From: Paenarthrobacter nicotinovorans
Lineage (GTDB): Bacteria; Actinomycetota; Actinomycetes; Actinomycetales; Micrococcaceae
Assembly (NCBI RefSeq): GCF_021919345.1
Contig: NZ_CP089293.1
Location: 1,612,001 to 1,676,000, forward strand
Direction of reading: 5' to 3'
Length of the DNA: 64,000 nucleotides
Part shown: in pieces, positions 31,565 through 64,000 of the stretch
Position numbering within the stretch: the stretch's first letter is position 1
Layout: every line of letters begins with the position of its first letter
Translations under genes and position numbers: made by a program
The notes under the pieces: model-generated
Databases searched by the model: none
What the model was told of the DNA's origin: nothing
What the model saw: only the letters and a program-made list of their open reading frames with translations

Positions 31565-34108
31565 GTGCGTATCCCACTTTCCTGGTTGCGTGAGTTCGCG
31601 CAGGTTCCGGCCGAAGCTACGGCCGAAGATGTCATGGCTGACCTGGTCAAGGTCGGCTTTGAAGAAGAAGATGTCCACCGTCCCACCGATGAGCTGAAGG
31701 GCCCTGTGGTTGTTGGGCAGGTGCTGAGCCTGGTCAAGGAACCGCAGACCAACGGCAAGACCATCAACTGGTGCCAGGTCCGGGTTGTCCCAGAGGGCCA
31801 GGAGCAGACCCTCACCGGCAAGGGCATCGATCCCTCCGGCGTGCAGGGCATCATCTGCGGCGCCCACAACTTTGTTGAGGGCGACAAGGTTGTTGTTACC
31901 TTGCCCGGAGCCGTACTGCCCGGAAACTTCCAGATCTCGGCCCGCAAGACCTATGGCCACCTGTCTGCCGGCATGATCGCATCCGTGCGAGAGCTGGGCA
32001 TCGGCGATGACCACGATGGCATTTTGGTCCTCTCCCGCATCGGCCTCGACCCCGAGATCGGCACTGACGCCATGGAGCTGCTGGGTCTGTACGACCAGGC
32101 AGCCGAAATCAATGTCACTCCGGACCGCGGCTACGCATTCTCCATCCGTGGGGTTGCCCGCGAGTACGCCCACGCCACGGGAACTTCGTTCGTGGATCCG
32201 GCGTCCAAGGTCAACGCGCCTGCTTCCCTGCAGGGTGGCTACGGAGTCAAGCTCAACGACGATGCTCCCATTTACGGCAAGCCGGGCTGCGATCGTTTCG
32301 TTGCGCGCACGGTCCGGGGCGTGGATGCCTCCCGCCCCACCCCGCCGTGGATGTCCTCACGCCTCCGCCTGGCCGGTGTACGTTCCATCTCGTTGCCCGT
32401 GGATATTTCCAACTACGTCATGTTGGAGCTTGGCCAGCCGAACCACTGCTACGACCTCGACAAGCTTTCGGGCGACATCGTTGTCCGCCGCGCGGTCGCG
32501 GGGGAGAAGATCACCACGCTCGATGACAAGGAGCGCACACTCGACGCCGAGGACCTGCTGATCACGGATGATTCGGGTGCGATCGGCATCGCAGGCGTGA
32601 TGGGTGGCGCCTACACCGAGGTTTCCGATTCCACCACGAATATCCTTGTGGAAGCCGCGCACTTCGACGAAGTATCCATTGCCCGCTCACGCCGCCGCCA
32701 CAAGCTGCCGTCCGAGGCGTCCAAGCGCTTCGAACGCGGTGTGGACTGGCATGTCGCCAACGTCGCTGCCCAGCGCGTGGTGGACCTCCTGGTGGAACTC
32801 GCCGGAGGTACCGCGGACGAGACCGGTACCGACGTCGGAACGGCGCCTGACGCCGTCGTGATTGAGCTGCCTGCTGGTTATGCTTCCGCGCGTATCGGCA
32901 TCGACTTCACCGAAGATCAGATCACCACCTCCCTTGAGGACCTGGGGGCCGTGGTGGAGAAGACCTCCTCCGGTTACCGCGTGACTGCACCAAGCTGGCG
33001 CAACGACCTCGAAACCAAGGACGACCTCTCCGAGGAAATCGCCCGTCTTGTGGGCTACGACAACATCCCGGCCACCTTGCCGGTGGCTCCTCCGGGACGC
33101 GGATTGAGCCGCACGCAGCAGCAGAAGCGCCGCGTCGTGCAGGCCCTGGCCGATGCCGGGCTGACCGAGGTGCTGTCCTACCCCTTCGTCACGAAGGCAG
33201 CCAACGACGCCTTCGGAGTGGCGGAGGAAGGCGCTGCCCGTCCGGCGTTGAAGCTCGCCAACCCGATCAGCGAGGAACAGGGGTATCTCCGCACGTCCAT
33301 CCTGCCGGGCCTGATTGAGGTGGCACGCCGCAACCACTCGCGCGGTTTCCGCGATCTTGCACTCTACGAGGCCGGCTCGGTCTTCCTGCCGGGTGACAAG
33401 CTCGGAACGGAGTCCATCCCGCCGTTGGGTGTCAAGCCCTCCGATGAGGTGCTGGATGCACTGTACGACGGCGTCCCCGACCAGCCGCTGCACATCGCCG
33501 CGGTCCTGACCGGTCATGATTCTCCGGCTGCCGCCACGCACAAGCCTCGTGCCTGGGACTGGGCCGACGCCCTGGACGTGGCCCGGCTGATCGCTGACGT
33601 TTTGGGCGTTGAACTGGTTGTCAGCCAAGGCAGCCACCAGGCATTCCATCCCGGGCGCGCGGCGCAGCTCGCACTGCGCAACGGCGACGTGGTTGGATAC
33701 GCAGGGGAACTCCACCCCAAGCTCCTTGCTGCGCACGACATGCCTGCGCGTTCAGTAGCGGTTGAGGTGGATGTCGATGCCTTGTTCGAAGCTGCCGCCG
33801 ACGTGATTGTCGCCAAGCACATCTCCGGGTTCCCGGTGGCGACGCAGGACGTTGCCCTGGTAGTTCCCCTGGACGTGCCGGCCGATCAGGTCCTGTCCGC
33901 ACTCCGTGAGGGTGCAGGTGAGCTCCTTGAGGACGTCTCGTTGTTCGACGTCTACGTGGGCCCGGGCATCGATGACGGTAAGAAGTCGCTCGCCTTCGGC
34001 CTGCGGTTCCGCGCAAACGACCGCACCCTGACGGCGGATGAGGCTTCGGAGGCCCGCGCTGCTGCCGTGGCCGTAGCCGCCGACCGCTTTGGAGCTGTCC
34101 AGCGCTAA
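31565..34108 (+). CDS. pheT: Phenylalanine--tRNA ligase beta subunit
   Basis: 847 aa. PheT carries the tRNA-binding OB domain (residues ~40-150), B3/B4 editing domain, B5, and the C-terminal anticodon-binding FDX-ACB domain (HISGFPVATQDVALVVP). MRIPLSWLREFAQVP at the N-terminus is diagnostic. GTG 31565 follows directly after pheS. The operon ends in a strong terminator. Confidence 0.97.
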   Translation: MRIPLSWLREFAQVPAEATAEDVMADLVKVGFEEEDVHRPTDELKGPVVVGQVLSLVKEPQTNGKTINWCQVRVVPEGQEQTLTGKGIDPSGVQGIICGAHNFVEGDKVVVTLPGAVLPGNFQISARKTYGHLSAGMIASVRELGIGDDHDGILVLSRIGLDPEIGTDAMELLGLYDQAAEINVTPDRGYAFSIRGVAREYAHATGTSFVDPASKVNAPASLQGGYGVKLNDDAPIYGKPGCDRFVARTVRGVDASRPTPPWMSSRLRLAGVRSISLPVDISNYVMLELGQPNHCYDLDKLSGDIVVRRAVAGEKITTLDDKERTLDAEDLLITDDSGAIGIAGVMGGAYTEVSDSTTNILVEAAHFDEVSIARSRRRHKLPSEASKRFERGVDWHVANVAAQRVVDLLVELAGGTADETGTDVGTAPDAVVIELPAGYASARIGIDFTEDQITTSLEDLGAVVEKTSSGYRVTAPSWRNDLETKDDLSEEIARLVGYDNIPATLPVAPPGRGLSRTQQQKRRVVQALADAGLTEVLSYPFVTKAANDAFGVAEEGAARPALKLANPISEEQGYLRTSILPGLIEVARRNHSRGFRDLALYEAGSVFLPGDKLGTESIPPLGVKPSDEVLDALYDGVPDQPLHIAAVLTGHDSPAAATHKPRAWDWADALDVARLIADVLGVELVVSQGSHQAFHPGRAAQLALRNGDVVGYAGELHPKLLAAHDMPARSVAVEVDVDALFEAAADVIVAKHISGFPVATQDVALVVPLDVPADQVLSALREGAGELLEDVSLFDVYVGPGIDDGKKSLAFGLRFRANDRTLTADEASEARAAAVAVAADRFGAVQR

Positions 34109-34284: not shown

Positions 34285-35151
34285 ATGAAGAAGCAGAACA
34301 TTGCTGTGCTTGTCGGGGCTGCAGTTGTGGCTTTGACGTCCTCGCTTGGTGGAGCTGCGGTAGCGTCAGAGCCGACGCCCCAGGCCGCCATTTCCGGGGT
34401 GCAGCCTGTGTCGCACACGGTGGACAAGACGCAGACGTCAGGGTCCGCGGCATCTCCGCTGGCCGACAAGTACACGCTGGCGATGCCCTCCAAGGGTGGC
34501 GGCGCTTCCACGGACTCAGTCATCGGCGCTGATGGCAGGGTACGGATCACGAACACCACGGCCGCGCCCAACCGCTCGATCGTGCAGATCGAATTCAACG
34601 GAGGCTACATCTGCTCCGGCGCCCTCATTTCGGATGACACCGTGCTGACCGCGGGCCACTGCGTGCACGAAGGTGGCACGGGTTCCACGGCGGATTACTC
34701 CTGGGGTGTGAAAGTGGCTCCCGGCCGGAACGGATCAACTGATCCTTACGGTACCTGTGGAGCTACCCAGCTCCTGACGGATCAGCGCTGGATTGATTCA
34801 GCCAACACCAATGCCGACTGGGGAGTCATCAAGCTCGACTGCACCATCGGCAACACCACCGGCTGGCTGAACTACACCGGAACGACCACCAGCCTGAACG
34901 GAACCACCGCGACGGTCCGGGGCTATCCCGGTGACAAGGCCTTCGGCACCATGTGGTCCATGACCGGTTCCATTGACAGCACCCAGGCCGAGAAGGTCTT
35001 TTACAAGATGGACACCTACGGCGGCCAGAGTGGCGCACCCGTCTACAACAGCTCCAACACCATCGTGGCCATCCACACCAACGGAGGCAGCTCGAACTCA
35101 GGCACGCGCATCACGCCCACCCTGGCGAGCTACCTGAACTCGGTGAAGTAG
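34285..35151 (+). CDS. Secreted V8-like (S1B) serine protease
   Basis: 288 aa. A signal peptide (KKQNIAVLV...GGAAVAS, about residues 1-28) is followed by a ~65-residue propeptide and a chymotrypsin-like domain. The triad is His125 in LTAGHCV, Asp178 in NADWGVIKL and Ser249 in YGGQSGAPV. The pattern matches glutamyl endopeptidases and related trypsin-like secreted proteases of Actinobacteria and Bacillus. Cys pairs (110/126 and 158/186) may form disulfides. AAAGG precedes the ATG. A promoter palindrome and a strong terminator make it a single-gene unit. Confidence 0.9.
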   Translation: MKKQNIAVLVGAAVVALTSSLGGAAVASEPTPQAAISGVQPVSHTVDKTQTSGSAASPLADKYTLAMPSKGGGASTDSVIGADGRVRITNTTAAPNRSIVQIEFNGGYICSGALISDDTVLTAGHCVHEGGTGSTADYSWGVKVAPGRNGSTDPYGTCGATQLLTDQRWIDSANTNADWGVIKLDCTIGNTTGWLNYTGTTTSLNGTTATVRGYPGDKAFGTMWSMTGSIDSTQAEKVFYKMDTYGGQSGAPVYNSSNTIVAIHTNGGSSNSGTRITPTLASYLNSVK

Positions 35152-35281: not shown

Positions 35282-35917
35282 ATGGACGAGCCTGTACTTG
35301 AGTTGCGCAGGCTGGACGAAGTTCCAGCTGCCGAGCGCTTCACACGACTCGGCAAACCCGCCCAGCAACGTGCGCTCCATTTAGCCAACCCCAAGGACCG
35401 TGAAGAATTCGTCGCTGGCCGGCTGGCCCTGCTGAATTTTGCCGCCTCGCTTCTCGACGTCGATCCCGTACACCTCGGGCCTGATTATCATTGCCCGCAG
35501 TGCGGTCCCGGCCAGGATCACGGCCGCCCCGGCTTCCTTCTCGACGGCGGTCCGGCGCCTCTGCTGCTGAGCGCATCCCGGGCGTCGGGCTGGGTGCTGC
35601 TGGCCGGCGTCGTGCATCCAACAGATGGCTCCCGGCTGGGAGTTGATCTGGAAGCGATAGAGGGGGTTGGCTTCGACGGATTCGATGACGTGGCCCTGAC
35701 TGAAAGCGAGAAGCGTTTCCTGGTGTCCTTCCCGGAACAGGACCAAGCCACGCAGCGGGCCCGGCTCTGGGCACGCAAGGAAGCCTGGCTGAAGATGACA
35801 GGCGAGGGCCTGAGGCATAACCCTGCGGAGCTGGATGTGCTGGGCCTGCCCGGTCTGCACGACATCACCCACATGCAACTACCTGACGGACTGGTGGCCG
35901 CCCTGGCCCTGGGCTAA
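35282..35917 (+). CDS. 4'-phosphopantetheinyl transferase (Sfp-like)
   Basis: 211 aa. PPTases move the phosphopantetheine arm of CoA to the Ser of carrier domains. The signature GVDLEAIE (Mg-binding Asp/Glu) and WARKEAWLKMTGEGL motifs are present. An AAAGGGGGGAG site precedes ATG 35282. The gene converges on, and overlaps by 4 bp, the M1 aminopeptidase gene of the neighbouring NRPS unit. The nearest carrier domain is that NRPS, so it is the probable client. The extra HCPQCGPGQDHG motif is a CxxC-type element in the N-terminal half, whose role is unknown. Confidence 0.87.
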   Translation: MDEPVLELRRLDEVPAAERFTRLGKPAQQRALHLANPKDREEFVAGRLALLNFAASLLDVDPVHLGPDYHCPQCGPGQDHGRPGFLLDGGPAPLLLSASRASGWVLLAGVVHPTDGSRLGVDLEAIEGVGFDGFDDVALTESEKRFLVSFPEQDQATQRARLWARKEAWLKMTGEGLRHNPAELDVLGLPGLHDITHMQLPDGLVAALALG

Positions 35918-37251
35918 CGTGCTGCAGGCAGCGGCGGAAGCGCGGCTTCGTACAGCCAGGGCCGGAGAATTCCAGCAGCACCGATCCCCGGAATGAAGGC
36001 GTCTGCAGCTGCAATGAACGATTCCGTGGATACTGACCCGTGCCGGTTCGAGGCGGTCCACTCCTGCAGGAAGCCAAAGAACGCTTCATCCCCGGCAGCC
36101 ATCCGCAGAGCGTGGACGGCCAGCGCCCCGCGCTTGTAGACACGGTCATCGAACATCAGCTCCGGGCCGGGGTCGCCCACCAGCAGGTCCTGCGGCCCGG
36201 CATCGAGCCTCTTCCATGCAGCCGATGCCCGCGCCGCAACAGTCATGGTGCCGGATTCCTCGGACCACAACCATTCGGCGTAGCAGGCAAATCCCTCATG
36301 AAGCCAAATGTCCTTCCAGTTGCTGACCGTCAGCGAATTCCCAAACCATTGGTGGGAGAGCTCGTGGGCGATCAGCCGCTGGGAATCCCAGGCATCCTTC
36401 ATGTGGTTTCGGCCGAAAATGGAGACCGTCTGGGCTTCCAACGGAATTTCCAGCTCGTCTTCAGTGACCACCGAGGTGTAGTCCGCGAACGGGTACGGGC
36501 CGAAGCAGTCCTCGAATGTCCGCATCATGTCCGGTTGGCGACGCAGGCCCTGAAGGGCGTCCCCGGTCATTTCAGGAGTCACGGCAACGTACTGGGGGAC
36601 CCGGTGGTGTGCGCCGTCCAACTGCAGCGGCACTTTGGCGTAACGGCCTATTTGAACGGTGGCCAGGTAGGTCGCCATCGGCTCAACCTGCTCGTAGACC
36701 CACGTTTCCCGGCTGGATTTGCGGGAATGGGACACGAGCCTGCCGTTGCATACCGGGCGGTAGTTCTCGTCAGTGGTCACGGAAATCAGGAAGCTGGACT
36801 TGTATCGGGGGTGGTCATTGCAGGGGAACCATGAGGCCGCGCCGTTGGGCTGGCCGGCCACCAGTACGCCGTCGTTCAGTTCTTCCCAACCCACGTCGCC
36901 CCACAACCCGCGCCGTGGTTGCGGATTGCCGTCATAGCGGATCTCCAGGGAAAACTGCTGCCCGGTTTTGAGGGCCGAGGCCGGATTGAGGACCAGGTGC
37001 TCGGCACGGTGGCTGAATTTCTGCACCTTCTTGCCGTCCATATGCACCTTCGACGCCCGCAAGCCCACCAGGTCCAGGACAATCTGTGTGCTTGCTTCCA
37101 AAGCTGTGCACTTCAGGACCGCTCTGCCCATCAGCTTGTTGCTGCCCAGCCTGACATCGAGCTCCAGCTCGTATCGGTCCACGCGGTAGCGCGTGCTTCC
37201 GTGGTCCAGGGTGTAGGGGTCGGGACTGGGGGTGCTGATGGGTGCGGTCAT
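35914..37251 (-). CDS. M1-family zinc aminopeptidase, candidate poly-lysine-degrading partner
   Basis: 445 aa, shorter than the ~850-aa standard M1 enzymes and lacking the C-terminal helical domain. The zinc site is HELSH (residues 296-300) with the third ligand Glu319 in WLHEGF, the HExxH-x18-E pattern. The usual GxMEN motif is replaced by IPLEAQT near residue 271, a normal change in this subgroup. There is no signal peptide. It starts 11 nt after the Pls-like NRPS stop with a GGGAG site in the gap, so the two are one operon. In Streptomyces, epsilon-poly-lysine producers carry a zinc exopeptidase (Pld) that degrades the product; I infer this could be its counterpart. Confidence 0.87.
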   Translation of the reverse strand: MTAPISTPSPDPYTLDHGSTRYRVDRYELELDVRLGSNKLMGRAVLKCTALEASTQIVLDLVGLRASKVHMDGKKVQKFSHRAEHLVLNPASALKTGQQFSLEIRYDGNPQPRRGLWGDVGWEELNDGVLVAGQPNGAASWFPCNDHPRYKSSFLISVTTDENYRPVCNGRLVSHSRKSSRETWVYEQVEPMATYLATVQIGRYAKVPLQLDGAHHRVPQYVAVTPEMTGDALQGLRRQPDMMRTFEDCFGPYPFADYTSVVTEDELEIPLEAQTVSIFGRNHMKDAWDSQRLIAHELSHQWFGNSLTVSNWKDIWLHEGFACYAEWLWSEESGTMTVAARASAAWKRLDAGPQDLLVGDPGPELMFDDRVYKRGALAVHALRMAAGDEAFFGFLQEWTASNRHGSVSTESFIAAADAFIPGIGAAGILRPWLYEAALPPLPAAR

Positions 37252-37262
37252 TAGCTCCCAAT

Positions 37263-40200
37263 CTACTTGAGACGGGGAGCTTGTGCTGACGGACCCACCC
37301 ACTGGCTCACCGGGTTACCCATCCAGTACGTCCCCGCGGGGACGGTTTCGCCGCGCATGACCAACGACGCCGGACCAACAGTCCCGCCGTCACCGATACT
37401 GGCCGCGGGGAGGATGACGCCGTGCGGCCCCATCGTGGCCCCATTGCCCAGTGTCACGGTGTCCAGGCTCATGACGCGATCATGGAACAGGTGCGTTTGG
37501 ACGACGCAACCCCGGTTGACGGTGGAGTTCTCGCCCAAGGTTACGAGGTCGGCTTCGGGCAGCCAATAGCTTTCGCACCACGTGCCGCGGCCAATCTTTG
37601 CGCCGAGGCCGCGGAGCCACCACACCAGGGCCGGAGTGCCCGCCGCCGACCTGGCAAACCACGGCGCGCTGACCATTTCGATGAAGGTGTCCACCACCTC
37701 GTTGCGCCAAATGAACGAACTCCACAGGGGGTGTTCGCCGGCCCGGATGGTTCCCACCAGAACCCATTTGGCAACAATGGAGCTGAGCGCTGCCACCGCT
37801 CCAGCGGCCAGCATCACGATGCCGCAGAGCAGGGCGGCAATCCAGTAGCCCCATCCGCGCGCGATCCAGTCCAGGAACACCATGACGGCCACGGCGATGG
37901 AAACAGTGAGGATGACGGGCACCAGCCGGCACAGTTCCCACAACGCCCGTGCCAGTTTGAGTTTGAACGGCGGCTTGAAGGTGCGGCTCTGGTCAGCGTC
38001 GACGGCGGTGCGGCGCAACCTCACAGGCGGGCTGCCCAGCCACGATGTTCCAGACTTCGCTTTGGCCGGGGTGGCTGACAATACCGCGACGAGGGAATTC
38101 TTGGGCACATTGCGTCCGGCAGCAGTCATGCCCGAGTTGCCGAGGAAGGAGCGTTTCCCGATCTTGGCCGGGGCAATCTTCATCCAGCCGCCACCGAGTT
38201 CGTAGGAAGCCACCATGGTGTCGTCGGCGAGGAACGCGCCGTCGCCGATGGTGGTCATCCTGGGGACCAGCAACACCGTCGAGGCTTCCACGTTCTTGCC
38301 CACTTTGGCTCCCAGCAAGCGCAACCAGACAGGTGTGAACAGGCTGGCGTAGATGGGGAAGAGAAGGTCCCGTGCCATGTCCAGGAGGCGTTCAGTTGCC
38401 CACACCTGCCAGCCGATGCGGCTGCGGACGCGGTAATGCCCCTCTTTGAGTCCCACACCCAGGAGCCTGGCCATCAAAAGAATCAGAAGGAGGTTACCGA
38501 GGAACCACACCAGCGCTGCCAACGGTGCGGACAGGGCGATCCCGGGGAGCGCGGTTTCCAAGGAATCGTGTCCTTGGATGAAGGCGAGGATGACCATGGC
38601 ACCGGCGAAGGCAGAGATGTAGGGGATCAGGGCGAGCAGGGCCGACGCGCCAGCAAAAGCAAGGAGCCACAGCCGGTCGACCGCCGAACGACGGATCATC
38701 GCTTCGGGCCAATCGTGTTTGGCCTTGCCGCGCCGTTCCGCCGGTGACCCCGCCACCAGATGGCCGGCCTTGACCTTGCCGAAAACTGCGGAGCCAGGCT
38801 CTACGTGGGCCCCGGCGCCGATGCTGGCTCCAGGCATGAGCGTGCTGCGGGAACCCACAACGGCGCCCGCACCAACATGGACCTGGCCAATGTGGACCGA
38901 ATCGCCATCCACCCACCAGCCGGACAGGTCCACCTCGGGCTCAATATTGGCTCCGCTGCCCAGTGACAGGAGGCCAGTGACGGGCGGAAGTGAGTGAAGG
39001 TGCACGTCCCGGCCGATTTTGGCGCCGAGGGCACGCGCGTAGTAAGGAACGAACGGAGCGCTGGCCAGCCCGATGGCGCCGGACAGGTCCTGGATCTGTT
39101 CGGCCAGCCACAGCCGCAAGTGGGTCTTGCCGGACCTGGGGTAGGTACCGGGCTCGACCCTTCCCAGCAGCAATCGTGCCGCCACCACGGAGATGGCCAT
39201 GCGTCCCAGTGGGCTGACGAAGATCAGCCAGGACAAGCCGATCCACCACCAGGACACGACCGGAGCGGCAGAAAAACCGGCGAAGTCAGCCAGCAACTTG
39301 TTGGCAGCCATGAGATAGGTCAGCCAACGCATTCCCACTAGGATGTGCAACGGAACGCCCATCAGGACTTGGAAGATCTGCGACTTCAAGGCGGTGGGGC
39401 GGACGGTTCGCTCGGCAGCGGGACCCGGGGCGCCGCCGTCGGGAAGTGACTGGCGGGCGGCGTCGATCAGTGCGCCGACGCGCGGTGTCGCGTAAATATC
39501 GGCGACGGTAATGGTGGGGTACCTGACGCGAAGGGCTGAGACGAGCTGGGCCGCTGCCAGGGACCCGCCACCATAGGCGAAGAAATCGGCGTCGAGCGAA
39601 CTCACGGGACTGCCGAGGACCGCTTCCCATTGCTCCACCACCCAGCGGGCGTCATCGGGCAGGTTCAACGGGGCGTTGCTCGCCTCCGTAGCGCCGGCGC
39701 CGGCCAGCGGCCAGGGGAGCGCGTGGCGATCCACCTTGCCGCTGGTCTTGGTGGGCAACGAATCCACCACGGTCAGCAAGGGGATCAACGCAGCCGGAAG
39801 GCTTTCGCCAAGCAACCTGCGGGCTTCGTCCATGCTCAGCTCGTAACCGTCAACGGGAGCCAGGTAGCCCACCAGGATCTGGTTGCCGGCGGCGGTCGTC
39901 TGCACGGCAGCAGCCGCACCGGCGACGCCGGGCAAGGACTGCAACGCTGCATCCACCTCGCCCAGTTCAATCCTGCGCCCGCCGAGTTTGACCTGTTCAT
40001 CGGCCCGGCCCATGAAGATCAGGCCCTCGGCTTCGAACCGCACCAGGTCACCCGAACGGTAGGCCCGGTCCCAGCCCAGCGTGGGCATGGGTGCGTACTT
40101 CTCGGCGTCCTTGGCGGGATCGAGGTAGCGCGCAAGGCCGACGCCGCCGATGATGAGTTCGCCGATGTCACCTTCGGCGACCGGAACACCACTGGAATCG

Positions 40201-41219
40201 ACGACGGCGAGGTCCCACCCGTCCAGCGGAAGCCCGATCCGCACGGGGCCGGGTCCGCCCAAGGGAGCGGCACACGCAACGACGGTGGCTTCCGTGGGGC
40301 CGTAGGTGTTCCAGACTTCGCGACCGTCCACAGCGAGCCGCTCGGCGAGCTCCGGAGGGCAGGCTTCGCCACCGAAAATGAGAAGACGTACGTTTTCCAG
40401 TGCCTCGGCCGGCCACAGGGCGGCGAGCGTCGGCACTGTGGACACCACGGTGATGCCGTGGTTGATCAGCCAGGGACCGAGGTCCATTCCGGTGCGAACC
40501 AGAGCGCGGGGAGCAGGCACCAGACACGCGCCATGGCGCCAGGCCAGCCACATCTCTTCGCACGAGGCGTCGAAGGCCACCGAGAGGCCGGCAAGCACCC
40601 GGTCCTGGGGGCCGATGGGTTCGGCCTGGAGGAAGAGCCTGGCTTCGGCGTCCACGAACGCGGCGGACGAACGGTGCTTGACGGCCACACCCTTGGGAGT
40701 GCCGGTGGAGCCCGAAGTGAAAATGATCCACGAATCATCGTCCAGCCCAGGTCTTGCCGGATTGGAGAGAGGTTCGCGCGAAGCATCGGAAAGCCGGACG
40801 TCCAGCCCCGCACCGATGACTGCCGCCACTTTGGCCTCCCCGAACACCAAGCGTGCCCGTTCCTCGGGATCGTCGGCGTCGACGGGCACGTAGGCGGCCC
40901 CGGCCATCAGGATGCCGAGGATAGCCACGTAGAGCTCATTGGTTCCGGAAGGGATGCGGACACCGATTTTCGCACCAGGGCCCAGACCCGCTGCGTTCAG
41001 GGTCCGGGCAAAAGAGCTGACGGCGGCGAGAAGTTCGGTGTAGCTAAGTGACTTGTGGCCGTCGTCCAGCGCTGAGGACTCCGGAAAGGAAGCCGCGGTG
41101 GCCTCCAGGATGTCCACGAGGGTACGTTCGGCAGGTGCTGCGGTGCCGCCCGGCAGCTGGGGGCGGTACGTGGTCAGGGCAGGCGTCTGCCCGGCCCCCA
41201 CGGAATGTTCTGTGCTCAC
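37263..41219 (-). CDS. Pls/PosA-type membrane NRPS, predicted poly-L-lysine-type synthetase
   Basis: 1318 aa; epsilon-poly-L-lysine synthetase of Streptomyces albulus is 1319 aa. Adenylation domain residues ~30-505 with IFTSGSTGTPKG (A3), NTYGPTEATV (A5), YRSGDLVRF (A7) and KTSGKVDRHALP (A10, Lys495). Carrier domain ~520-590 with FFAYGGGSL (Ser553). No condensation or thioesterase domain follows. Instead there are six hydrophobic segments (about 620-640, 655-690, 848-880, 893-925, 1098-1120, 1125-1150) around three soluble domains with hexapeptide (left-handed beta-helix) features near 730-830, 965-1045 and 1205-1305. This is the Pls layout. Specificity residues D217, A218, E221, S260, I281, G283, T305, V313, V314, K495 suggest lysine. 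GTG 41219 chosen; TTG 41249 lacks a ribosome site. Confidence 0.9.
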   Translation of the reverse strand: MSTEHSVGAGQTPALTTYRPQLPGGTAAPAERTLVDILEATAASFPESSALDDGHKSLSYTELLAAVSSFARTLNAAGLGPGAKIGVRIPSGTNELYVAILGILMAGAAYVPVDADDPEERARLVFGEAKVAAVIGAGLDVRLSDASREPLSNPARPGLDDDSWIIFTSGSTGTPKGVAVKHRSSAAFVDAEARLFLQAEPIGPQDRVLAGLSVAFDASCEEMWLAWRHGACLVPAPRALVRTGMDLGPWLINHGITVVSTVPTLAALWPAEALENVRLLIFGGEACPPELAERLAVDGREVWNTYGPTEATVVACAAPLGGPGPVRIGLPLDGWDLAVVDSSGVPVAEGDIGELIIGGVGLARYLDPAKDAEKYAPMPTLGWDRAYRSGDLVRFEAEGLIFMGRADEQVKLGGRRIELGEVDAALQSLPGVAGAAAAVQTTAAGNQILVGYLAPVDGYELSMDEARRLLGESLPAALIPLLTVVDSLPTKTSGKVDRHALPWPLAGAGATEASNAPLNLPDDARWVVEQWEAVLGSPVSSLDADFFAYGGGSLAAAQLVSALRVRYPTITVADIYATPRVGALIDAARQSLPDGGAPGPAAERTVRPTALKSQIFQVLMGVPLHILVGMRWLTYLMAANKLLADFAGFSAAPVVSWWWIGLSWLIFVSPLGRMAISVVAARLLLGRVEPGTYPRSGKTHLRLWLAEQIQDLSGAIGLASAPFVPYYARALGAKIGRDVHLHSLPPVTGLLSLGSGANIEPEVDLSGWWVDGDSVHIGQVHVGAGAVVGSRSTLMPGASIGAGAHVEPGSAVFGKVKAGHLVAGSPAERRGKAKHDWPEAMIRRSAVDRLWLLAFAGASALLALIPYISAFAGAMVILAFIQGHDSLETALPGIALSAPLAALVWFLGNLLLILLMARLLGVGLKEGHYRVRSRIGWQVWATERLLDMARDLLFPIYASLFTPVWLRLLGAKVGKNVEASTVLLVPRMTTIGDGAFLADDTMVASYELGGGWMKIAPAKIGKRSFLGNSGMTAAGRNVPKNSLVAVLSATPAKAKSGTSWLGSPPVRLRRTAVDADQSRTFKPPFKLKLARALWELCRLVPVILTVSIAVAVMVFLDWIARGWGYWIAALLCGIVMLAAGAVAALSSIVAKWVLVGTIRAGEHPLWSSFIWRNEVVDTFIEMVSAPWFARSAAGTPALVWWLRGLGAKIGRGTWCESYWLPEADLVTLGENSTVNRGCVVQTHLFHDRVMSLDTVTLGNGATMGPHGVILPAASIGDGGTVGPASLVMRGETVPAGTYWMGNPVSQWVGPSAQAPRLK

Positions 41220-41341
41220 GGGCTCAGCTTTTCGCAGGAAGGTGAACAAAAGATGTCGGTGGCTTCTTGCCCGTCACAGTCCGTTGCTGCGATGTTCGCC
41301 GGAACGTCACCGGGAGTTTGGGGCCGGGCGCTGCCCCTACG

Positions 41342-41398
41342 GGACAAGCCGGTCGTCACAGGACAAGCCGGTCGTCATGGGACAAGCCGGCCGTCACG
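41342..41398. repeat. Three 19-bp tandem repeats upstream of the NRPS
   Basis: GGACAAGCCGGTCGTCACA occurs at 41342, 41361 and 41380 with one or two changes, and a decayed fourth copy begins at 41399 inside the end of the qor gene. The array lies 120-180 bp upstream of the NRPS start on its promoter side, so it could hold binding sites. Confidence 0.8.
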
Positions 41399-42359
41399 GG
41401 ACCAGCAGGACCTTGCCGGTGGTCCGGCGTCCCTCCAGGTCCCTGTGGGCCTGGGCCGCTTCGGCCAGGGGGTACGTGGCGCCGACCCTGACAGCAAGAG
41501 TGCCGTTGGCTGCGGCGTCGAAAATTTCGGCCGAGCGCCACCGGCGTTCCTGGGCATTCTGTACAAAGTGCGCCATGGTGGGCCTGGTGAGTGTCAACGA
41601 GCCTGCCGCGTTCAACCGCTGTGGATCAAACGGCGGCACCGGTCCCGAGGCTGCGCCGAACAGCACCATGGCCCCACGGATCCGCAGGCTTCTCAGAGAG
41701 TCATCGAAGGTGTCCTTGCCAACGCCGTCGTAGACGACGTTGACGCCCTCGCCGTCGGTGAGTTCACGGACCTTGTCGGCGAAGCCCTCATAGCGCAGGA
41801 CGTCATCAGCCCCGGCGAGAGTGGACAGATCGGCCTTCTCGTCGGAGGACACGGTGGTGATGACCCGGGCCCCGCGGGCCTTCAGCAGTTGGGTCAACAG
41901 CAGGCCTACTCCGCCGGCTCCGGCGTGCAGAAGCACCGTGTGGCCGGGCTCAACCCGGAAAGAGGAGTTCATCAGGTAGTGGGCCGTTATTCCCTGCAGC
42001 GGCAGGGCGGCGGCGGTGTGGTCATCGACGCCGGCAGGAACCGGGAGCGCCCTGGCGGCGTCCACCAGGGAGTACTCCGCGTAGGTCCTGGTTCCTTCGG
42101 CCGTGGCAATGCGGTCGCCGATGGCAAACTCTTCAACGCCCTCGCCTACTGCCTCCACGACGCCGGCTGCTTCGGCGCCGGGGGTGAAGGGGTAGTCCAC
42201 CTTGTAGGTGCCATTGCGCTGGTAGGTCTCGATGAAGTTGACCCCGGCAGCTGCGACTTTGATCAGCAGCTGCCCGGGGCCCGGTGCCGGTACTTCGACG
42301 GAAGCGAACTCGAGGACCTCCGGTCCTCCGGGCTGCTGTGCAACGATTGCGTGCGTCAT
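41394..42359 (-). CDS. NADPH:quinone oxidoreductase, MDR family
   Basis: 321 aa. A zinc-free medium-chain dehydrogenase/reductase of the QOR type. Features are GVNFIETYQRNGTY near the N-terminus, the Rossmann motif HAGAGGVGLLLTQLLKARGA and the C-terminal EGRRTTGKVLL. No zinc-binding Cys cluster is present. QOR enzymes reduce quinones by one electron with NADPH. An AGGAG site lies 6 nt before the ATG. It lies upstream of the NRPS on the same strand, but the 174-bp gap with repeats argues against tight coupling. Confidence 0.92.
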   Translation of the reverse strand: MTHAIVAQQPGGPEVLEFASVEVPAPGPGQLLIKVAAAGVNFIETYQRNGTYKVDYPFTPGAEAAGVVEAVGEGVEEFAIGDRIATAEGTRTYAEYSLVDAARALPVPAGVDDHTAAALPLQGITAHYLMNSSFRVEPGHTVLLHAGAGGVGLLLTQLLKARGARVITTVSSDEKADLSTLAGADDVLRYEGFADKVRELTDGEGVNVVYDGVGKDTFDDSLRSLRIRGAMVLFGAASGPVPPFDPQRLNAAGSLTLTRPTMAHFVQNAQERRWRSAEIFDAAANGTLAVRVGATYPLAEAAQAHRDLEGRRTTGKVLLVP

Positions 42360-53305: not shown

Positions 53306-53320
53306 TCCACCGACGCTTCT

Positions 53321-53549
53321 TCACGTTCCGCGTGTTTGGTGCGGTCGCTTCCTCACGTTCCGCGTGTTTGGTGCGGTCGCTTGCTCACGTTCCGTGTGTT
53401 TGGTGCGGTCGCTTGCTCACGTTCCGTGTGTTTGGTGCGGTCGCTTGCTCACGTTCCGCGTGTTTGGTCCGGTCGCTTGCTCACGTTCCGTGTGTTTGGT
53501 GCGGTCGCTTGCTCACGTTCCGCGTGTTTGGTCCGGTCGCTTGCTCACG
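53321..53549. repeat. Seven 32-bp tandem repeats
   Basis: Copies begin at 53321, 53353, 53385, 53417, 53449, 53481 and 53513, plus a 5-bp stub. The unit runs TCACGTTCCGCGTGTTTGGT then GCGGTCGCTTGC, with only C/T and G/C changes. As 32 is not a multiple of 3, the array reads in all three frames and is not coding. It separates the isomerase-like gene from the convergent Ada-AlkA gene and is related to the array at 59778. Confidence 0.93.
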
Positions 53550-59777: not shown

Positions 59778-59957
59778 GACGCTCGCTCACATCCCTAGCG
59801 CTTGCGTGTGACCCTTGCTCACATCCCTAGGGTTTGAATCGGACGCTCGCTCGCATCCCTCGGGATTGAATCGGACGCTTGCTCATATCCCGCGGGTTTG
59901 AGGCGGTCGCTTGCTCATATCCCGCGGGTTTGAATCGGACGCTTGCTCATTTTCTTC
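59778..59957. repeat. Five to six diverged 32-bp tandem repeats
   Basis: Copies begin at 59778, 59810, 59842, 59874 and 59906, with a partial one at 59938. A typical unit starts GACGCTTGCTCATATCCCGC and ends GGGTTTGAATCG. It matches the 53321 repeat at about 24 of 32 positions when aligned on CGCTTGCTCA. Not coding. It lies upstream of the rrn promoter. Confidence 0.88.

Positions 59958-60605: not shown

Positions 60606-64000
<3,395 letters not shown>

Follow-up and report, generated by a model that had tools for sequence, protein, structure and literature searches.

A pls, M1 peptidase and phosphopantetheinyl transferase locus of Paenarthrobacter nicotinovorans is a probable epsilon-poly-L-lysine cassette

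Does Paenarthrobacter nicotinovorans carry the genes to make epsilon-poly-L-lysine, and do the genes beside its candidate synthetase (pls) belong with it? Epsilon-poly-lysine is a commercial antimicrobial from Streptomyces fermentation. The locus in question lies in a 64,000-nucleotide stretch of contig NZ_CP089293.1 (the window; positions are counted from its first letter) and combines pls with genes for an M1-family metallopeptidase and a 4'-phosphopantetheinyl transferase (PPTase). An earlier note had described a 1318-aa adenylation-thiolation (A-T) protein, an M1 gene 11 nt downstream of it and a PPTase converging on the pair; open reading frame (ORF) positions and domain scans agree that this layout is real. 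The locus is very probably an epsilon-poly-L-lysine cassette, a reading that draws on family membership, substrate pocket, predicted fold, gene order and co-occurrence, each documented here. Papers are cited for the parts of their text that were available. The features of the locus are:

35282..35917, plus strand: PPTase, 211 aa, Sfp/HetI-like; ACPS-superfamily match of 44.0 bits against a gathering threshold of 25
35914..37251, minus strand: M1-family metallopeptidase, 445 aa, gene at the pldII position; Peptidase_M1, HELSH-x18-E, no hydrophobic N-terminal leader
37263..41219, minus strand: pls, Pls/PosA-family synthetase; 1318 aa from GTG at 41219, alternatively 1328 aa from TTG at 41249
37308..39374, minus strand: membrane polymerisation region of Pls, C1-C2-C3; three units of helix pair plus left-handed beta-helix
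39459..39647, minus strand: thiolation (carrier) domain of Pls, PF00550; GGGS motif with Ser553 as the expected phosphopantetheine site
40128..41108, minus strand: adenylation (AMP-binding) domain of Pls, PF00501

By its sequence the 1318-aa protein is a Pls/PosA-family synthetase (TIGR02353). Its TIGR02353 terminal region scores 710.7 bits against a curated cut-off of 423.1, and NCBI names close relatives 'Pls/PosA family non-ribosomal peptide synthetase' (top match at 92%, in Paenarthrobacter nicotinovorans). The best solved relative is the epsilon-poly-L-lysine synthase A domain 7WEW, at 669–671.9 bits (residues 37–517 in the numbering of the 1328-aa form); PosA, through its shorter chain 8G95, scores 193 bits. 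Together with the TIGR02353 match this bears out the Pls identity that had been proposed. A Pfam scan found a single A-T module without a condensation or thioesterase domain, as the note had read it. Modelling of the three C-terminal domains, suggested there as a check, gave three left-handed beta-helices with a membrane helix pair ahead of each (AlphaFold, mean pLDDT 90). The reading frame is uninterrupted, and pocket and carrier residues are present.

Which monomer the enzyme would use was addressed through the A-domain pocket and a tree. The ten pocket positions were set by GrsA motifs and fall at residues 217, 218, 221, 260, 281, 283, 305, 313, 314 and 495 of the 1318-aa form, residue 495 lying beyond the PF00501 match. 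They were checked against the numbering and code format of the PosA paper (PMC10522769). The resulting code, DAESIGTVVK, is the same as in 7WEW, to which the A domain is 68% identical over 463 residues (Streptomyces albulus). Of 144 aligned rows, the window, its duplicate L005 and 7WEW being counted among them, 134 have this code. DAESIGTVIK occurs in five and DFECLSVVTK in two, and the remaining three are blank at the first seven positions. At pocket position 2, Ala goes with lysine, Met with ornithine and Phe with diaminopropionate or diaminobutyrate (Dap/Dab) (PMC10522769). With a pocket identical to that of 7WEW and Ala at position 2, lysine would be the most likely monomer.

The alignment and tree that the earlier note had called for comprised 64 rows, rooted on the two Phe-type (DFECLSVVTK) proteins and built without PosA, Corynebacterium variabile Pls or named Dap/Dab synthetases. 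The window protein fell in a branch of 43 rows with Micrococcaceae around it; the sister branch, of 13 rows, holds S. albulus-type Streptomyces and Kitasatospora. The two branches together make up a 56-row group (support 90) that stands apart from the Phe-type proteins. Pocket, family and tree are consistent with the isopeptide-linked homopolymer that had been suggested, and epsilon-poly-L-lysine is the likely product.

Other Pls-like proteins appeared in the same searches. A second Pls type, about 50% identical and with pocket DAESIGTVIK, was seen at L139–L142 (genomes G094, G043, G018 and G072) and in Kocuria polaris (L072), with no M1 homolog found within the fetched surrounding stretch. 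Two proteins of the same genus (L143 and L144, in G014 and G042) are about 30% identical and have pocket DFECLSVVTK; by the scheme of PMC10522769, their position-2 Phe suggests substrates of the Dap/Dab type. Three frames of 880–1106 aa from the same class (L105, L115 and L116, in G422, G414 and G394) score 779–886 bits with TIGR02353 and show only gaps in the columns of the A-domain pocket.

Whether the three genes belong together was examined in 101 genomes of the genus, the window's own included, searched with the Pls C-terminal region (E 1e-20), M1 (E 1e-30) and PPTase (E 1e-6). Each was matched in 85 genomes; the three sets are identical, and the same 16 genomes lack all three. A close pls, with at least 71% identity over at least 648 of the 709 residues of the C-terminal region, is present in 81 genomes, own included. 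Among the remaining four of the 85, G052 has the Pls region in pieces, and in G018, G072 and G094 most of the region is matched by the second type alone, at 42–44%. The order pls then M1 within 2 kb on one strand holds in 82 of the 85, and 75 also have a convergent PPTase within 2 kb; the PPTase match is just 38–42% identical in G002, G009, G021 and G091. Genome G094 has pls cut to two ends, and G018 has no pls match above 40 bits, in both cases beside a retained M1 and PPTase and with a second long Pls-type synthetase elsewhere in the genome. The gene for the synthetase can therefore be lost first, and the block is not always lost as a unit.

An A-T-acyltransferase_3 protein resembling nonribosomal peptide synthetases (L214:1233-3917 in G065, 894 aa; L216:1371-3899 in G081, 842 aa) occurs in 55 of the 101 genomes (E 1e-60), with no match in the window's genome. 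It was considered as a mutually exclusive partner of the cassette and rejected: it is found in 13 of the 16 cassette-free genomes but also in 42 of the 85 carriers.

The block sits between two border genes:

31565..34108, plus strand: pheT, left border; TIGR00472, 606 bits
41394..42359, minus strand: qor, NADPH:quinone reductase-like, right border; below NCBIfam cut-offs

In 76 of the 85 carrying genomes M1 lies within 15 kb 3' of pheT. Of the other nine, two (G016, G021) carry it at a different place on the pheT contig and seven (G005, G009, G014, G047, G048, G061, G080) on another contig, which contig breaks may explain; some movement of the cassette may have occurred. All 16 cassette-free genomes keep pheT, qor and argC together with the block absent. 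The distance from pheT to qor is 82–167 nt at 13 of these empty sites, and a stretch of 1.5–1.6 kb separates the genes in three (L159, L165, L167); blastn of the empty-site gaps against the window cassette gave no match above 27 nt. Mapped onto a pheT tree that covers 61 of the 101 genomes, the site must have switched between filled and empty at least 10 times. The 13 closest pls relatives in the genus, 90–94% identical across the C-terminal region, come from the same genomes as the 13 carriers closest in pheT. With pls and pheT pointing to the same close relatives, the pattern is more simply read as repeated loss, and it speaks for vertical descent with loss of the cassette over a horizontal origin of the window copy. 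A trypsin-like serine protease gene (34285-35151) also lies between pheT and the PPTase gene, with no match above 35 bits in the fetched stretches around the 16 cassette-free sites.

The position of the peptidase gene was compared across 80 named loci fetched with a 7WEW query. An M1 match lies downstream of pls on the same strand in 69. Three of the other 11 loci (L027, L073, L080) break off within pls, and Kitasatospora and Kocuria are among the rest. Export was assessed with a simple hydrophobicity threshold of 1.5 over 12 residues, with starts unverified, in 117 M1 rows that include three copies of the window gene. Only seven rows exceeded it, all Streptomyces with a twin-arginine-like start; another Streptomyces (L044) scored 1.47 and the window M1 0.38. 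Since no export leader was found, we file the window gene as a pldII-position peptidase and not as PldII, and because it lacks the twin-arginine-like leader of some Streptomyces counterparts it may act in the cytosol. In S. albulus, pldII overlaps pls by 4 bp in one operon (PMC4361855), and PldII is translationally coupled, located outside the membrane and needed for self-protection (PMC9223678). Inactivation of Pld and PldII left production and chain length unchanged (review PMC8506220). The pls-adjacent PldII is described as endo-type, and the Zn exo-type enzyme is the separate Pld (PMC8506220, PMC9223678). The earlier view of the peptidase as a polymer degrader is therefore retained as far as it is the counterpart of pldII, and its description as a zinc exopeptidase is not. 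The statement that it later trims the polymer also needs correction, as a peptidase without a leader may serve cytosolic turnover or self-protection.

The PPTase is longer than AcpS and far under NCBIfam equivalog cut-offs. Within its own genome, PF01648 finds two PPTases, this one and a 118-aa frame that is AcpS-like by size, and PF00550 finds two carrier domains, that of Pls and a 106-aa frame resembling an acyl carrier protein by size. With only two of each found, the larger PPTase most simply serves Pls. Among the 80 named loci, six gave a homolog at tblastn E 1e-8, a threshold that distant PPTases would escape; five of these loci are from Arthrobacter or Pseudarthrobacter and the sixth is from Humibacillus. 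The placement of the homolog varies: it lies upstream of pls in L070 and on the same strand in L094. Fifteen of the 16 cassette-free genomes have a single, AcpS-like PF01648 match. G099 has a second, over which no ORF of at least 150 aa with a common start was found. Each of the 16 has two or three PF00550 carrier matches, including the L214 type in 13. A genome without an Sfp-type PPTase is thus not necessarily without other carriers, and A-T-type carriers can occur in the absence of this PPTase.

How lysine would be activated and polymerised, and the polymer exported and degraded, can be proposed by analogy with the enzymes of Streptomyces and Corynebacterium. The PPTase would place phosphopantetheine on Ser553 of the Pls carrier domain, and the A domain would adenylate L-lysine and transfer the residue to that carrier. 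Linking lysines through the epsilon-amino group would then be the task of the membrane-embedded triple beta-helix region, and the resulting cationic homopolymer would be released at the membrane. The M1 peptidase, whose gene is probably transcribed together with pls, would break down the polymer or short unexported forms, in turnover or self-protection.

Several observations weigh against this reading. Pocket codes predict a monomer and do not prove it, as is illustrated by PosA, which prefers ornithine and has modest lysine activity (PMC10522769). Support for the joined 43- and 13-row branches is below the 95 mark. Outside them lie L147 (with a long-branch warning) and the DAESIGTVIK clade, so a nearly identical pocket code does not define one clade. 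Full-length identity of Pls to the S. albulus-like L025 protein, whose A domain is 93% identical to 7WEW, is 53%. Kitasatospora loci gave no M1 match, though the genus has a confirmed epsilon-poly-L-lysine synthetase (PMC8117764), and the window M1 has no export leader by the hydrophobicity test, unlike its S. albulus-type counterpart. The promoter scan returned 0 sites and the terminator scan 1, versus 5.1 in shuffles. C. variabile itself yielded no detectable epsilon-poly-L-lysine in culture (PMC8117764), and no report of an Arthrobacter-group Pls product or activity was found in the literature examined.

Polymerisation of another diamino acid, such as ornithine, diaminobutyrate or beta-lysine, would be in keeping with a family that holds PosA (ornithine), Dap/Dab and beta-lysine synthetases (PMC8117764, PMC10522769), and argC, of the ornithine-making pathway, starts 2.4 kb away. 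That proximity is not functional evidence, because pheT, qor and argC also stand together at the 16 cassette-free sites. The pocket has Ala and not Met or Phe at position 2, 7WEW outscores PosA, the tree groups the window with S. albulus-type Pls and no aminomutase was found among six proteins scanned, which makes this alternative improbable. That the locus is silent or in decay, with no polymer produced, is rather unlikely. C. variabile Pls was not detectably expressed under test (PMC8117764), the block is absent in 16 of the 101 genomes, and G094 and G018 retain M1 and PPTase beside a reduced or vanished pls; both of these, however, have the second synthetase elsewhere, and the window pls is a full open frame with pocket and carrier residues whose 13 nearest relatives are closely conserved. 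A merely accidental proximity of M1 and PPTase to pls is barely credible: at the thresholds used, each of the 101 genomes matches either all three genes or none, and every cassette-free genome lacks the entire block at one and the same site, even though the PPTase homolog is rare in the named loci and not always convergent, and 10 of the 85 genomes depart from the full arrangement, four having only the more distant PPTase.

The epsilon-poly-L-lysine reading can be extended, tentatively and with considerable doubt, to the Arthrobacter group as a whole. There the locus could be a self-contained, all-or-none cassette of synthetase, own PPTase and a cytosolic peptidase, repeatedly removed whole between pheT and qor. 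The peptidase would be an antidote or proofreading enzyme directed at unexported polymer, unlike the exported PldII of Streptomyces. If so, loss of the peptidase with pls kept would be harmful. The exact joint presence and absence offers a clean genetic test of the dependence of Pls on PPTase and peptidase, and close relatives with filled and empty sites offer a way to ask for the polymer's natural role. A soil actinobacterium whose cassette is compact and includes a dedicated PPTase would also be a convenient alternative source of epsilon-poly-lysine to test.

Elsewhere in the window, a 19-bp unit repeated 3.6 times (41339-41406) spans the end of qor and the qor–pls gap. Two 32-bp tandem repeat arrays, at 53314-53549 (7.4 copies) and 59778-59949 (5.4 copies), have units that share CGCTTGCTCAC. 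A 16S and a cut-off 23S rRNA gene occupy 60606-64000, where G+C is lower and skew is strong.

The enzyme set and the occurrence of Pls in Arthrobacter-like relatives are already known. The earlier note held this product type to be unexpected in such bacteria, which does not agree with the close pls in 81 genus genomes or with published work. Pls homologs in coryneform bacteria were reported in 2021, with Arthrobacter among the named genera, and C. variabile Pls under an S. albulus promoter gave epsilon-poly-L-lysine in S. coelicolor (Jiang 2021, PMC8117764; also PMC8506220). Clusters for non-alpha poly-amino acids (NAPAA) were called in nine of nine Antarctic Micrococcaceae and Dermatophilaceae isolates in 2024, two of them in or with Paenarthrobacter (PMC11078813), and in Paenarthrobacter lasiusi (PMC11719660). 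We found no description of the three genes occurring, or being absent, together at a single site, nor of the leaderless peptidase. On epsilon-poly-lysine Pls and PPTase, one report, in its available text, mentions PPTases solely among the gene classes that are enriched in the strain it studied. In the literature lists examined, none of the titles or opening abstract lines dealt with cassette loss, which is not proof of absence.

Among known systems, S. albulus Pls shares the A-T and membrane beta-helix layout and the pocket code, and in S. albulus-like loci (L025) an M1 gene is also directly downstream; the window differs in having a PPTase beside pls and an M1 without a twin-arginine-like leader. 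S. albulus PldII is likewise encoded by a metallopeptidase gene adjoining pls in one operon, but it is reported to lie outside the membrane whereas the window M1 is leaderless; the latter was compared with the L025 gene at the pldII position, to which it is 41% identical. NAPAA is an antiSMASH class and as such a prediction label, and the cited passages on Antarctic isolates and P. lasiusi show no product. PosA of Acinetobacter baumannii belongs to the same family with the same layout and has Asp217, Glu221, one Thr and one Val of the pocket in common, but it has Met where the window has Ala at position 2 and forms a single-gene operon (PMC10522769). The coryneform Pls of C. variabile is the same enzyme type in a pls–peptidase operon (PMC8117764); the main text of that paper gives no PPTase link and no all-or-none pattern ('phosphopantetheinyl', 'PPTase', 'loss' and 'signal peptide' are not among its words).

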